From Solibacillus sp. FSL R5-0449 (GTDB taxonomy: Bacteria; Bacillota; Bacilli; Bacillales_A; Planococcaceae), in assembly GCF_037975215.1 (NCBI RefSeq), contig NZ_CP150239.1, forward strand, positions 1,216,001 to 1,280,000: a stretch of DNA of 64,000 bases. The letters run 5' to 3'. The notes below the pieces were generated by a model. The model saw only the letters and a program-made list of their open reading frames with translations, searched no databases and was not told the origin of the DNA. Position numbers and translations under genes: made by a program. Positions 9,673 through 34,468 of this stretch are shown one piece after another (the first letter of the stretch is position 1; every line of letters starts with the position of its first letter).

Positions 9673-10246
9673 CCAGACACGCCTCCCTTAACATTTAAGA
9701 TATATTGTAAATGTTCTTGGATATTAAAGATATATTTTGGTTCCCAAACCGACGTTTGGTAACATAATTTTCTAGTCCTGTACTCAAAATCGTATTTGTG
9801 CTTCTTTTTTATGTAAGGTAGTAGACCACATGAATATGACGAACCCTTATTCCACAATCTGGGCGCGATTATTGAAGAAGAGTTCCTAGGGCAAACAGTG
9901 TGTATGACACTTACCAATATGCATATTTTCTTGTATAAAATTTGCCCACAAATTGCCCACAAACTTATAACTTTCTACAGTGTATTATAATGAACGAACT
10001 TCTCAAAACATTGATTTATCAACATTCCTAGTGAACTGAATTACCACCTATTATATAGGAACAGAATCCGCACATCTGTACACCAGTGGGAACGCGACCA
10101 ATATATGAAGATGTACTAAGAGGAAAGCGTTGGGGCTATTGGCTCCAACGCGTTTTTCTGTATAAGCTTATGTTCTTTATTTCATCCGAATGTTGTAGAG
10201 TTTTTTCCTTCCTTTCCTTCTAAAATGAAAGAAGGAGGGGATGTAT
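9673..10246. other. Long non-coding or decayed region
   Basis: No convincing gene is seen. It contains a hairpin GGTTCCCAAACC-GAC-GTTTGG near 9739-9757 resembling the one at 8483-8510, and a perfect tandem 11-mer TTGCCCACAAA at 9942-9952 and 9953-9963. A short frame near 9830-9970 reads EYDEPLFHNLGAIIEEEFLG, which looks protein-like but has no start and may be a remnant. An orphan terminator lies at 10124-10158. Confidence 0.45.
10124..10158 (+). terminator. Orphan intrinsic terminator
   Basis: GCGTTGG-GGC/GGC-CCAACGC hairpin with TTTTT. No gene on this strand ends here. The sequence nearly duplicates the terminator at 10695-10728, which suggests that a duplicated or deleted gene once stood upstream. 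Confidence 0.75.
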
Positions 10247-10657: not shown

Positions 10658-10694
10658 GCGTGGGCACACCACTAAATAAAAACAGATTAAAAAG

Positions 10695-10728
10695 AAAGCG
10701 TTGGGGCTGTATGCTCCAACGCTTTTTG
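10695..10728 (+). terminator. Intrinsic terminator of the VOC gene
   Basis: AAAGCGTTGGGGC pairs with GCTCCAACGCTTT around TGTAT, followed by T residues. It nearly duplicates 10124-10158. Confidence 0.85.
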
Positions 10729-31643: not shown

Positions 31644-32786
31644 ATGTCTGAGGAAATGAATTTAGGGTCAAACCAAAAATTTCAAGAAGGAGATATTGTG
31701 AAAGGTGTTGCTGAACAGGTTGAAGAAAAGTCAGTAACGGTTTCGATCGAGGGGGCACCTTTCGACGGGATTATACCTATTAGCGAACTTTCAAGCTTAC
31801 ACATTGAAAAAGCTTCTGATATAGTTTCAGTTGGCGATCAGCTAGAGCTTATGATTACGAAAGTTGAAGAAGAGAATTTTGTATTATCGAAACGCAAAGT
31901 AGATGCTCTGCACGCGTGGGATGAATTAAAAGCGAAATTCGAATCTGGTGAAGTATTCGAAGCAGAAGTAAAAGATGTTGTGAAAGGCGGACTTGTCGTC
32001 GATCTAGGCGTGCGCGGTTTCGTTCCGGCTTCACTCGTTGAAGATTATTTTGTCGAAGATTTTGAGGATTACAAAGGCAAAACTTTACGTTTAAAAATTA
32101 CAGAGTTAGATAAAGAAAAAGGCCGACTTATTTTATCTCATCGTGCAGTATTAGATGAAGAGAAAGCGTCGAAAAAGCAACAAGTGATTCAAAATATCCA
32201 TCAAGGGGATATGCTGGAAGGTACAGTTCAGCGCTTGGCGAAATTCGGTGCGTTCATTGATTTGGGCGGCATTGATGGATTAGTCCACATTTCACAAGTG
32301 GCACATGAACATGTTGAAGATATTTCTACGGTATTACAGGAAGGACAATCTGTAACTGTAAAAGTGCTTTCAGTCGATATTCCAAATGAGCGTGTTTCAT
32401 TATCGATCAAAGATACTTTGCCTGGTCCATGGACAGACATTGAAGAGAAAGCTTCTAAAGGCGCAATCTTAACAGGTACTGTAAAACGTCTTGTTACATT
32501 CGGTGCTTTTGTGGAAGTATTCCCTGGTGTTGAAGGTCTTGTCCATATTTCTCAAATTTCCCACAAGCATATTACAACACCGCATGAAGTCTTAAAAGAC
32601 GGACAAGAGGTGGAAGTAAAAGTACTTGAGGTAAATGAAGCAGAAAAACGCCTTGCACTAAGCATTAAAGCATTGCAGGAAGATTCTGCGAGCGACGAGG
32701 ACTACGATTACGAACTGCCTGAAGAAAATAAAGGTTTCTCTTTCAGCGATGTTATCGGTGATCAGCTAAAAGGATTCAAAAAATAA
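31644..32786 (+). CDS. ypfD: S1 RNA-binding domain protein YpfD (ribosomal protein S1 homologue)
   Basis: The 380-aa protein has four S1 repeats, at roughly 16-86, 104-169, 190-258 and 275-344. They end in motifs such as LSKRKV, LSHRAV, LSIKDT and LSIKAL. The last two begin EGTVQRLAKFGAFIDLGGIDGLVHIS and TGTVKRLVTFGAFVEVF. This is the short Firmicute S1, which may aid translation initiation or RNA stability but is not essential in B. subtilis. AAGGAGG precedes the ATG. Confidence 0.94.
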   Translation: MSEEMNLGSNQKFQEGDIVKGVAEQVEEKSVTVSIEGAPFDGIIPISELSSLHIEKASDIVSVGDQLELMITKVEEENFVLSKRKVDALHAWDELKAKFESGEVFEAEVKDVVKGGLVVDLGVRGFVPASLVEDYFVEDFEDYKGKTLRLKITELDKEKGRLILSHRAVLDEEKASKKQQVIQNIHQGDMLEGTVQRLAKFGAFIDLGGIDGLVHISQVAHEHVEDISTVLQEGQSVTVKVLSVDIPNERVSLSIKDTLPGPWTDIEEKASKGAILTGTVKRLVTFGAFVEVFPGVEGLVHISQISHKHITTPHEVLKDGQEVEVKVLEVNEAEKRLALSIKALQEDSASDEDYDYELPEENKGFSFSDVIGDQLKGFKK

Positions 32787-32794
32787 TATTACGA

Positions 32795-32833
32795 AAACCG
32801 CCCATATAAGGATGCTTATGTGGGCGGTTTTTT
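32795..32833 (+). terminator. Terminator of ypfD
   Basis: AAACCGCCCATATAAG pairs with CTTATGTGGGCGGTTT, with one G-T pair and a 4-base loop, followed by T residues. Confidence 0.9.
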
Positions 32834-32854
32834 GCTTTTTGGGAAGCTCATAGC

Positions 32855-33031
32855 ATGAAATTATTAGAACAAATTTATAGTTTATTAGAAAAAGCGAGTG
32901 GGATTTTAGAAGAATTGCATGCAATATTTGAACATATGGCATTCATTTTAGAACTTTTGGGAAATATATTAGAAGACCGCCTACTTATTAGAACTAGTCA
33001 CGTTATATTAGATAATTTCCCACTTTTTTAG
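32855..33031 (+). CDS. Small heptad-repeat peptide ORF (58 codons)
   Basis: From ATG 32855 the ORF reads as consecutive seven-residue units: KLLEQIY, SLLEKAS, GILEELH, AIFEHMA, FILELLG, NILEDRL, then LIRTSHVILDNFPLF. The DNA shows TTAGAA-type hexamers (one variant TTTGAA) spaced exactly 21 bases at 32864, 32885, 32906, 32927, 32948 and 32969, then 19-20 bases. Such peptides would form an amphipathic helix or coiled coil. The ribosome site is poor (GGGAAG at long spacing), so translation is not certain. No family recognised. Confidence 0.45.
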   Translation: MKLLEQIYSLLEKASGILEELHAIFEHMAFILELLGNILEDRLLIRTSHVILDNFPLF

Positions 33032-33157
33032 AAAATTATAGCCTCCGAAAAGTTTGACGATAAATCGAAATCGATTTTGAATGTTATGAAAAAATGATAT
33101 AATAGTCAAATTCGTGTATAATACGGAAAGACAAGAGTTTGGAAGGATGAAGTACAG

Positions 33158-34468
33158 ATGACAAAACCAGTAATCGCCATCGTAGGACGTCCGAACGTAG
33201 GTAAATCGACAATTTTTAACCGAATTGTTGGAGAACGTGTATCGATCGTGGAAGATATTCCAGGTGTAACACGGGACCGTATTTATAGTTCGGCTGATTG
33301 GCTAGCACATGAATTTAATATTATCGACACTGGTGGTATTGAAATTGGGGACGAGCCATTTTTAGAACAGATCCGTCAGCAAGCGGAAATCGCAATTGAT
33401 GAGGCGGACGTTATTATTTTCATGACTAATGGACGTGAAGGTGTTACGGCTGCAGATGAGCAAGTAGCAAAAATTTTATATAAAACAAAAAAACCGGTAG
33501 TACTTGCAATAAACAAAATTGATAACCCGGACATGCGTCATATGATTTATGACTTCTATTCATTGGGCTTCGGTGAGCCTTGGCCGATTTCAGGTTCACA
33601 TGGTTTAGGCTTAGGGGATTTATTGGATGAGTGTGCGAAACACTTCCCGAACCCGGATGAAGAACAATATGATGATGATACGATTAAATTCTCGTTAATC
33701 GGACGCCCGAACGTAGGGAAATCATCACTTGTGAATGCCTTTTTAGGTCAGGACCGAGTTATTGTAAGTGAAATCCAAGGAACAACTCGTGATGCAATCG
33801 ATTCTCCGTACTCATATGATGGACAAGATTACGTTATTATCGATACAGCGGGCATGCGTAAAAAAGGGAAAGTATACGAATCAACAGAAAAGTATTCGGT
33901 ACTCCGTGCATTGCGCGCGATTGAACGCTCAGACGTTGTTTTAGTCGTTCTGAATGCGGATGAAGGTATTCAGGAACAGGACAAAAAAATTGCAGGCTAT
34001 GCACATGAAGCCGGCAAAGCAATCATTATCGTTGTAAACAAATGGGATGCAATTGAAAAAGACGAGAAAACGATGAATATCTTTACAGAGCAAATTCGTG
34101 AACACTTCCTGTTTTTAGATTATGCACCGATCGTTTTCGTTTCGGCAAAAACGAAACAGCGTGTCCACAATATTTTACCGATTATCAAGCGTGTTAGTGA
34201 AAACCATGCGATGCGTATTCAATCATCAATTTTAAATGAAGTAATTGAAGATTCGATTGCACGTAATCCTGCACCAACAGATAAAGGTCGTCGTTTACGT
34301 ATTTACTATGCAACACAAGTGGCGATTAAACCACCGACATTCGTTGTATTCGTAAATGAACCGGAAATGATGCACTTCTCATACGAGCGCTTCTTAGAAA
34401 ACCGTATTCGTGAGACTTTCGATTTTGAAGGAACTCCAATACGCCTCATTACACGTGCTCGTGACTAA
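33158..34468 (+). CDS. der: Ribosome-assembly GTPase Der (EngA)
   Basis: The 436-aa protein has two tandem Era-like GTPase domains: P-loop GRPNVGKST near 10-18 with DTGG and NKID, and a second GRPNVGKSS near 183-191 with [11 protein letters not shown] and NKWD. A C-terminal KH-like domain follows. It is essential for 50S subunit maturation. TTGGAAGGATG-type ribosome site upstream. Position before gpsA matches B. subtilis. Confidence 0.97.

Follow-up and report, generated by a model that had tools for sequence, protein, structure and literature searches.

Directional box arrays at two-helical-turn spacing beyond transcription terminators in Solibacillus and its relatives

Iterons, which occur on plasmids and on Vibrio chromosome II, are direct repeats that all face one way at a spacing of roughly two helical turns, each serving as the site of a DNA-binding protein. 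Type II centromeres (parC/ParR) and TubC likewise consist of tandem directional sites read by an oligomerising protein, with Type II centromeres present once per plasmid beside their own genes. REP/BIME elements are dispersed, species-specific repeats that lie between genes, often at 3' ends. Multiple recognition sites are also carried by the ends of Mu and Tn7, and in CRISPR or TIGR-like guide arrays the spacers are constrained or acquired as guides. In Bacillus subtilis, the sites of RemA are direct repeats of AT-rich sequence, believed to wrap around an octameric ring; the repeats are 7 bp long, 3 bp apart and poorly conserved (PMC8481266). Here, we detail an array of directional boxes in a 64,000-nucleotide stretch of the chromosome of Solibacillus sp. 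FSL R5-0449 (the window), the family to which it belongs, and its likely role.

Iterons, REP/RAYT systems, RemA sites and transposon ends each differ from these arrays in at least one tested feature. The arrays share with iterons directional repeats at about two helical turns, but they occupy 41 dispersed chromosomal loci after unrelated genes and no replication origin. The Rep3_N initiator (PF01051), found in one of 16 genus genomes, has no match in the genome containing the window (G000), and this absence, together with the 41 spread loci and their unrelated upstream genes, rules out Rep3 iterons. Unlike REP/BIME elements, the arrays have nine rigidly spaced boxes that are asymmetric, not palindromic. 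RAYT Y1_Tnp (PF01797) has two copies in G000 and is absent from G001, G015 and the array-bearing G008 and G012, while being present in other genomes; the non-palindromic box and the absence of Y1_Tnp from array-bearing genomes rule out REP/RAYT. RemA sites are also directly repeated, with 3-bp gaps where the arrays mostly have 21-bp steps; they are ruled out because RemA (PF04025), found in a B. subtilis control, is missing from all 16 genus genomes. Type II centromeres are single sites beside their genes, whereas the arrays are many chromosomal sites for which a partner gene was not found.

The window array lies between ypfD and der (Table 1). A sequence-only reading had reported TTAGAA-type hexamers from 32864 to 33028, with one TTTGAA variant, and a 58-residue ORF from the ATG at 32855, and all of these are present as described. 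The flanking genes it named agree with the NCBIfam and TIGR03594 profile matches, the product of 31644-32786 matching the NCBIfam model for 30S ribosomal protein S1, that is, a ypfD-type protein. Its six heptads correspond to boxes 1-6, which share one reading frame; with box-to-box steps of 21 bp (five times), 19, 20 and 20, the last three steps leave the heptad frame. The limits of the element were set where conservation among paralogues ends, outside the first and last box. The spacers are unalike, which rules out plain tandem duplication, as the earlier reading had maintained. A search for three TTAGAA words at 21 bp (at most one mismatch) gave four matches in the window, all within the array at 32861-33036, and none in 100 dinucleotide shuffles; chance is ruled out by the shuffles and by the genome-wide absence of reversed-pattern triples. 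It is also the only array that turned up when the window was scanned for any 8-bp word repeated four times, whether at a period of 19-23 bp or at one of six control periods.

Table 1. Features of the ypfD-der gap and its flanks, in window coordinates
Feature	Position	Strand	Basis
Upstream gene ypfD, S1-domain protein	31644..32786	+	ORF; NCBIfam NF005208, 511 bits
Intrinsic terminator of ypfD: hairpin AAAACCGCCCATATAAG..CTTATGTGGGCGGTTTT and T run	32794..32835	+	Sequence reading; folds as stem
58-codon ORF, array by-product, no gene	32855..33031 (ATG 32855, stop 33031)	+	ORF list; orthologue stops; no family match
Array element: nine directional boxes in one B-type array, without A array	32861..33036	+	Paralogue comparison
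Box 1	32861..32872	+	TTAGAA at 32864
Box 2	32882..32893	+	TTAGAA at 32885
Box 3	32903..32914	+	TTAGAA at 32906
Box 4	32924..32935	+	TTTGAA at 32927
Box 5	32945..32956	+	TTAGAA at 32948
Box 6	32966..32977	+	TTAGAA at 32969
Box 7	32985..32996	+	TTAGAA at 32988, 19-bp step
Box 8	33005..33016	+	TTAGAT at 33008
Box 9	33025..33036	+	TTAGAA at 33028
Downstream gene der	33158..34468	+	TIGR03594, 597 bits

The window array is one copy of a dispersed, directional array family found at 41 loci of G000 (3.58 Mb). A DNA search of this genome gave 38 matches, and exact TTAGAA-N15-TTAGAA-N15-TTAGAA triples number 77, against none of the reversed pattern. In the stretches that were retrieved, arrays of at least four boxes number 72 and fall into 41 clusters spread round the chromosome. 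Forty-four arrays have seven or more boxes, of which 43 contain a common 19-bp step that was used to align them in register. Boxes 1-6 are all present at 21-bp steps in 37 of these 43 (the first step being 20 in 13 of the 37), the remaining six miss or skip a box, and 40 of the 43 go on with steps of 19, 20 and then 20 or 21. The long-copy layout is accordingly one of nine boxes with core TATTAGAA at steps of 21 (five times), 19, 20 and 20-21, and box 4 reads TTTGAA more often than anything else (21 of 43 arrays). The box consensus, drawn from 394 sites picked for exact TTAGAA, spans about 12 bp and is directional, WTATTAGAA(C/G)AW. Spacing is rigid: steps from one TTAGAA to the next measure 19 bp in 42 cases, 20 in 64, 21 in 197 and 22 in one. 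A second, shorter array (A, usually four boxes) lies upstream of the main array (B) at 24 of the 41 loci, beginning 122-165 bp before it and most often 144; B arrays stand alone at 16 loci and an A-type array alone at one. Among aligned G000 paralogues, the spacers after boxes 6 and 7 are better conserved than other spacers, and that after box 7 is 85% A+T. On the + strand, both the spacers and the lead that precedes the A array are rich in G, and the spacers become rich in C toward the end of the B array, as if either side were G-rich when entered by transcription.

Divergence between species points to selection on the boxes. Across 23 orthologous locus pairs of G000 and a close species, G005, the box core (positions -2 to +5) differs at 40 of 2464 positions (1.6%), a figure lowered, at most about twofold, by calling boxes in G000 only and partly ascertained, since a G005 locus had to contain one or more perfect triples to be chosen. 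Over the same pairs, spacers differ at 678 of 2764 positions (24.5%) and flanks at 1114 of 4751 (23.4%), one of 47 array comparisons (below 60% identity) being left out of the count; the wider box (-3 to +8) differs at 185 of 3692, and gaps amount to 3-6 of about 311 per column. The window copy, in comparisons not selected for box content, differs from G008 and G012 at 3/72 and 4/72 core positions and at 31/81 and 25/81 spacer positions. At a permease locus, the corresponding counts against G003 and G005 are 2/104 and 2/104 for the core and 15/115 and 20/117 for the spacers. Boxes and their spacing are therefore under purifying selection, with near-neutral spacers that drift at the rate of the flanks. 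Such drift in place rules out CRISPR or TIGR-like guide arrays. The same selection is seen in a second genus, whose box word is TTTAGTTGGAA: in seven orthologous comparisons, three of them at one locus, the box columns left free by the search pattern (4-6, 8 and 9, the TTAG columns being fixed by it) differ at 5 of 175 positions, a count that excludes column 7 (9/35, reflecting a G/T alternation of the word), against 132 of 681 in the flank and roughly 21-47% in the outer spacer columns.

The arrays also hold a characteristic place with respect to genes. The upstream gene is co-oriented with the array at 31 of the 41 loci, and in 21 of these 31 the first box follows its stop codon by 60-92 bp. 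Terminator-like hairpins on the + strand occur within 110 bp upstream of the array at 24 of 41 loci and downstream at 4 of 41, those on the - strand downstream at 17 of 41 and upstream at 5 of 41, and random windows of the same loci contain one in 69 of 657 cases, all by a crude detector. By this measure, the arrays lie mostly just beyond intrinsic terminators, where the DNA should be little transcribed. Twenty of the 41 upstream genes were scanned; four had no family match, and the 16 that did have unrelated functions, among them RecA, enolase, a pseudouridine synthase of the RluD type, an aldehyde dehydrogenase, two chemotaxis receptors and GerQ, as would suit a generic boundary role.

The sequence-only reading had allowed that the hexamers might be protein sites two helical turns apart, and this suggestion is supported; the window array is one case of a dispersed, selected array class. 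We propose that a sequence-specific, oligomerising DNA-binding protein would occupy the array with its subunits on one face of the helix, and that this putative reader may assemble past the terminator, where little transcription is expected, into a short filament or wrap with a polarity. Both the position beyond terminators and the way the arrays are oriented relative to the upstream gene speak for a boundary or roadblock that is polar; the array would most likely serve as a boundary, blocking as a fail-safe any RNA polymerase that has read through the terminator or slid past it. Box word and reader protein would change together between species. DNA-bound LacI stops elongating RNA polymerase, and several polymerases together dislodge it more readily than one (PMC4132739). 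The LacI roadblocks presented there use engineered operators, whereas the arrays are natural and post-terminator; by analogy, a multi-site array would be expected to block polymerase better than a single site. Against a boundary count the last three steps (19, 20, 20), which drift off helical phase, the 17 of 41 arrays for which no upstream terminator was called, and the 10 of 41 with a divergent upstream gene. No obvious reader gene was seen by eye in a 16.5-kb array-rich stretch. To the reading as a whole, namely protein-occupied arrays that act as DNA, form a boundary or roadblock after terminators, and co-change with their reader, we assign a probability of roughly 0.5.

Within the genus, an array may be present, absent or replaced at the same place. 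The der gene is present in all 16 genus genomes, and the TTAGAA array in the ypfD-der gap is common to G000, G008 and G012. In G003 (L078), G005 (L073) and G007 (L074), the gap holds another 21-bp array, with box TTTAG(T/C)CAA, which follows a closely similar terminator at the same post-terminator spot; by eye, the other ten genomes have no array in the 330 bp before der. The earlier remark that relatives encode other genes in this gap was only partly right: the array persists there in G008 and G012, and a different 21-bp one is found in G003, G005 and G007. At the permease locus, an array is present in G000, G003 and G005 and absent in G008, while G007 and G012 have other sequence past the permease. 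Eleven of the 16 genomes contain TTAGAA triples, with the reversed control at zero in all 11. Five of the 16 lack all four array words, TTAGAA, TTTAGTCA, TTAG and GATT; whatever the arrays do is therefore dispensable in the genus. G000 also carries TTTAGTCA arrays; at L283 (G000:C1:2520500-2525500), a pair of TTTAG(T/C)CAA arrays on one strand is separated by about 1.1 kb, and one of the two comes directly after a terminator. A word-blind scan of 400 kb of G008, from which plain tandem repeats were filtered, gave seven hits at five places at period 21 and none at every other period from 14 to 28. Six of the seven were TTAGAA and one was a third genus word, TCGTCA, found as TTWATCGTCA directly after a terminator in an A+B-like layout with steps of 21, 20, 51 and then 21 five times (L377:19380-19700). 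The same scan of 400 kb of G010, which is without array words, gave no hit at period 21, three at 18 and two at 24; a stricter version left one hit at 21 in G008 and one at 18 in G010.

Presence, absence and replacement at one place in close species, together with presence in only part of the genus, is what one might expect of mobile, non-autonomous elements that insert right after terminators and whose boxes are recognised by a putative transposase or recombinase. Dispersed copies with box-to-box homology and a clear box/spacer register fit this idea as well, as do the tandem array units at L021, L024, L027 and L067 of G000, with start-to-start distances of about 345, 338, 235 and 144 bp. However, Mu/Tn7-like ends have inverted binding sites, whereas A and B boxes share one orientation, which sets transposon ends of that kind aside. 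Among G000 paralogues, no conserved sequence extends beyond the first and last box, and boxes at fixed orthologous sites are strongly selected, unlike dead insertions. Matches to phage records are only fragments of 33 bases or fewer and one element had no match in plasmid records, which also speaks against a phage or plasmid origin; a pattern scan of viral contigs returned five, at least three of them outside long frames. We regard a mobile family as unlikely, and the two ideas may meet in a mobile family whose sites were taken into use.

Beyond the genus, arrays of this kind recur in related species, built from other boxes. TTAGAA triples were found in 13 of 185 genomes outside it, twelve with one to three matches and one (G114) with 12. 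Runs of five TTAGs at 21-bp steps are present in 51 of 261 family genomes (15 of 19 genera) and runs of five GATTs in 85 of 261 (11 of 19 genera), counted separately and with coding and plain tandem-repeat cases included in both. Box words vary by lineage, among them TTTAGTTGGAA or TTTAGTTGTAA, TTTAGCGGCGGAA, TATC(A/G)GCGATT, TATCCACGATT, TTTAGTTGCGGTT and TTATTAGACACTTT. The family loci that were fetched contain 65 arrays, 18 spanned by an open frame of at least 100 aa and 47 outside long ORFs; some, as in G098 and G108, consist in part of plain tandem repeats whose spacers are conserved. A terminator was called upstream of 12 of the 47 and, on the opposite strand, downstream of 18, a weaker signal in this mixed set than in G000, partly because the search word decides which strand each box family is given. 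Among the family loci listed, nine stand by eye directly after a terminator (L289, L294, L296, L298, L302, L303, L306, L307 and L308). A wider contig scan gave at least 115 stretches; among those listed, from which stretches inside long frames were filtered, many are plain tandem repeats, in Bacteroidota and others. Non-coding 21-bp arrays with a TTAGAA core and variable spacers are found in Ureibacillus manganicus (L114, L186), Bacillus tianshenii (L115, L129) and Alteribacter natronophilus (L136, L218). We suggest, tentatively and with more doubt than confidence, that helically phased arrays of some 5-13 directional boxes beyond terminators could form an undescribed class of transcription-unit boundary in the source family, Planococcaceae, and some other Bacillales, in which the specificity of a reader-protein family would drift and the word turn over while spacing, location and selection persist.

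The spread of the 41 loci round the chromosome, their location beyond terminators and the strong selection on boxes would also suit a chromosome-architecture site, at which a nucleoid protein organises or anchors DNA and which follows genes only because the DNA there is untranscribed. An architectural site would have no need of an orientation that follows the upstream gene (31 of 41), and species-specific boxes and the absence of arrays from five of 16 genus genomes would be unusual for a core nucleoid function. Moreover, with the origin assumed near base 1, the two chromosome halves hold 25 loci (15 on the + and 10 on the - strand) and 16 loci (10 and 6), with no obvious strand polarity between them. 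An architectural role accordingly strikes us as rather improbable.

That array orientation tracks the upstream gene would also fit an RNA element, in which an RNA-binding protein or nuclease binds UUAGAA motifs on transcripts that read through. Yet the arrays come after the terminator, + strand terminators downstream of them are at background (4/41 against 69/657), and the main step is exactly 2 x 10.5 bp. Folded as RNA, L002 does no better than its shuffles (z +1.78; 97 of 100 shuffles fold at least as well), and the good fold of a window stretch that includes the ypfD terminator (z -4.0) is attributed to the terminator hairpin and nearby pairing. Spacer-spacer duplexes are no better within elements than between them (best 6/500 in 55 tests), and when only the spacers were shuffled, the boxes being kept in place, 43 arrays gave a mean z of +0.15 (se 0.15) on the + strand and +0.23 (se 0.20) on the - strand. 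All Rfam matches in window positions 32000-34000 are well below gathering scores. A structured RNA is ruled out by these four results; the tests of pairing and structure still permit an unstructured linear motif, but an RNA element is on balance very unlikely.

A selected 58-residue heptad-repeat peptide, the other option of the sequence-only reading, is rejected: the frame is open in the window copy, but in the ypfD-der gap of G008 and G012, the two other species that share this copy, the LE frame carries in-frame stops, as it does in many G000 paralogues, while the spacers evolve like the flanks and the protein has no Pfam or NCBIfam match. With the G008 and G012 stops, the frame is not conserved in orthologues, as that of a protein-coding small ORF would be.

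Hundreds of selected, rigidly spaced sites in one genome, lying behind ordinary genes and changing in word from species to species, would imply a dedicated DNA-binding system, and no description of such arrays, by motif, taxa, spacing or location, was found in the openly licensed literature searched. If the arrays do delimit transcription, they would reveal how the gaps between genes are protected in bacteria that depend on intrinsic terminators. Fast change of the box against a fixed spacing would, furthermore, give a natural series in which a protein and its many genomic sites change together. Elsewhere in the window, positions 10097-10156 and 10668-10727 hold two 60-bp copies, 77% identical, each with a similar GCGTTGGGGC..GCTCCAACGC hairpin; these hairpins are probably terminators.
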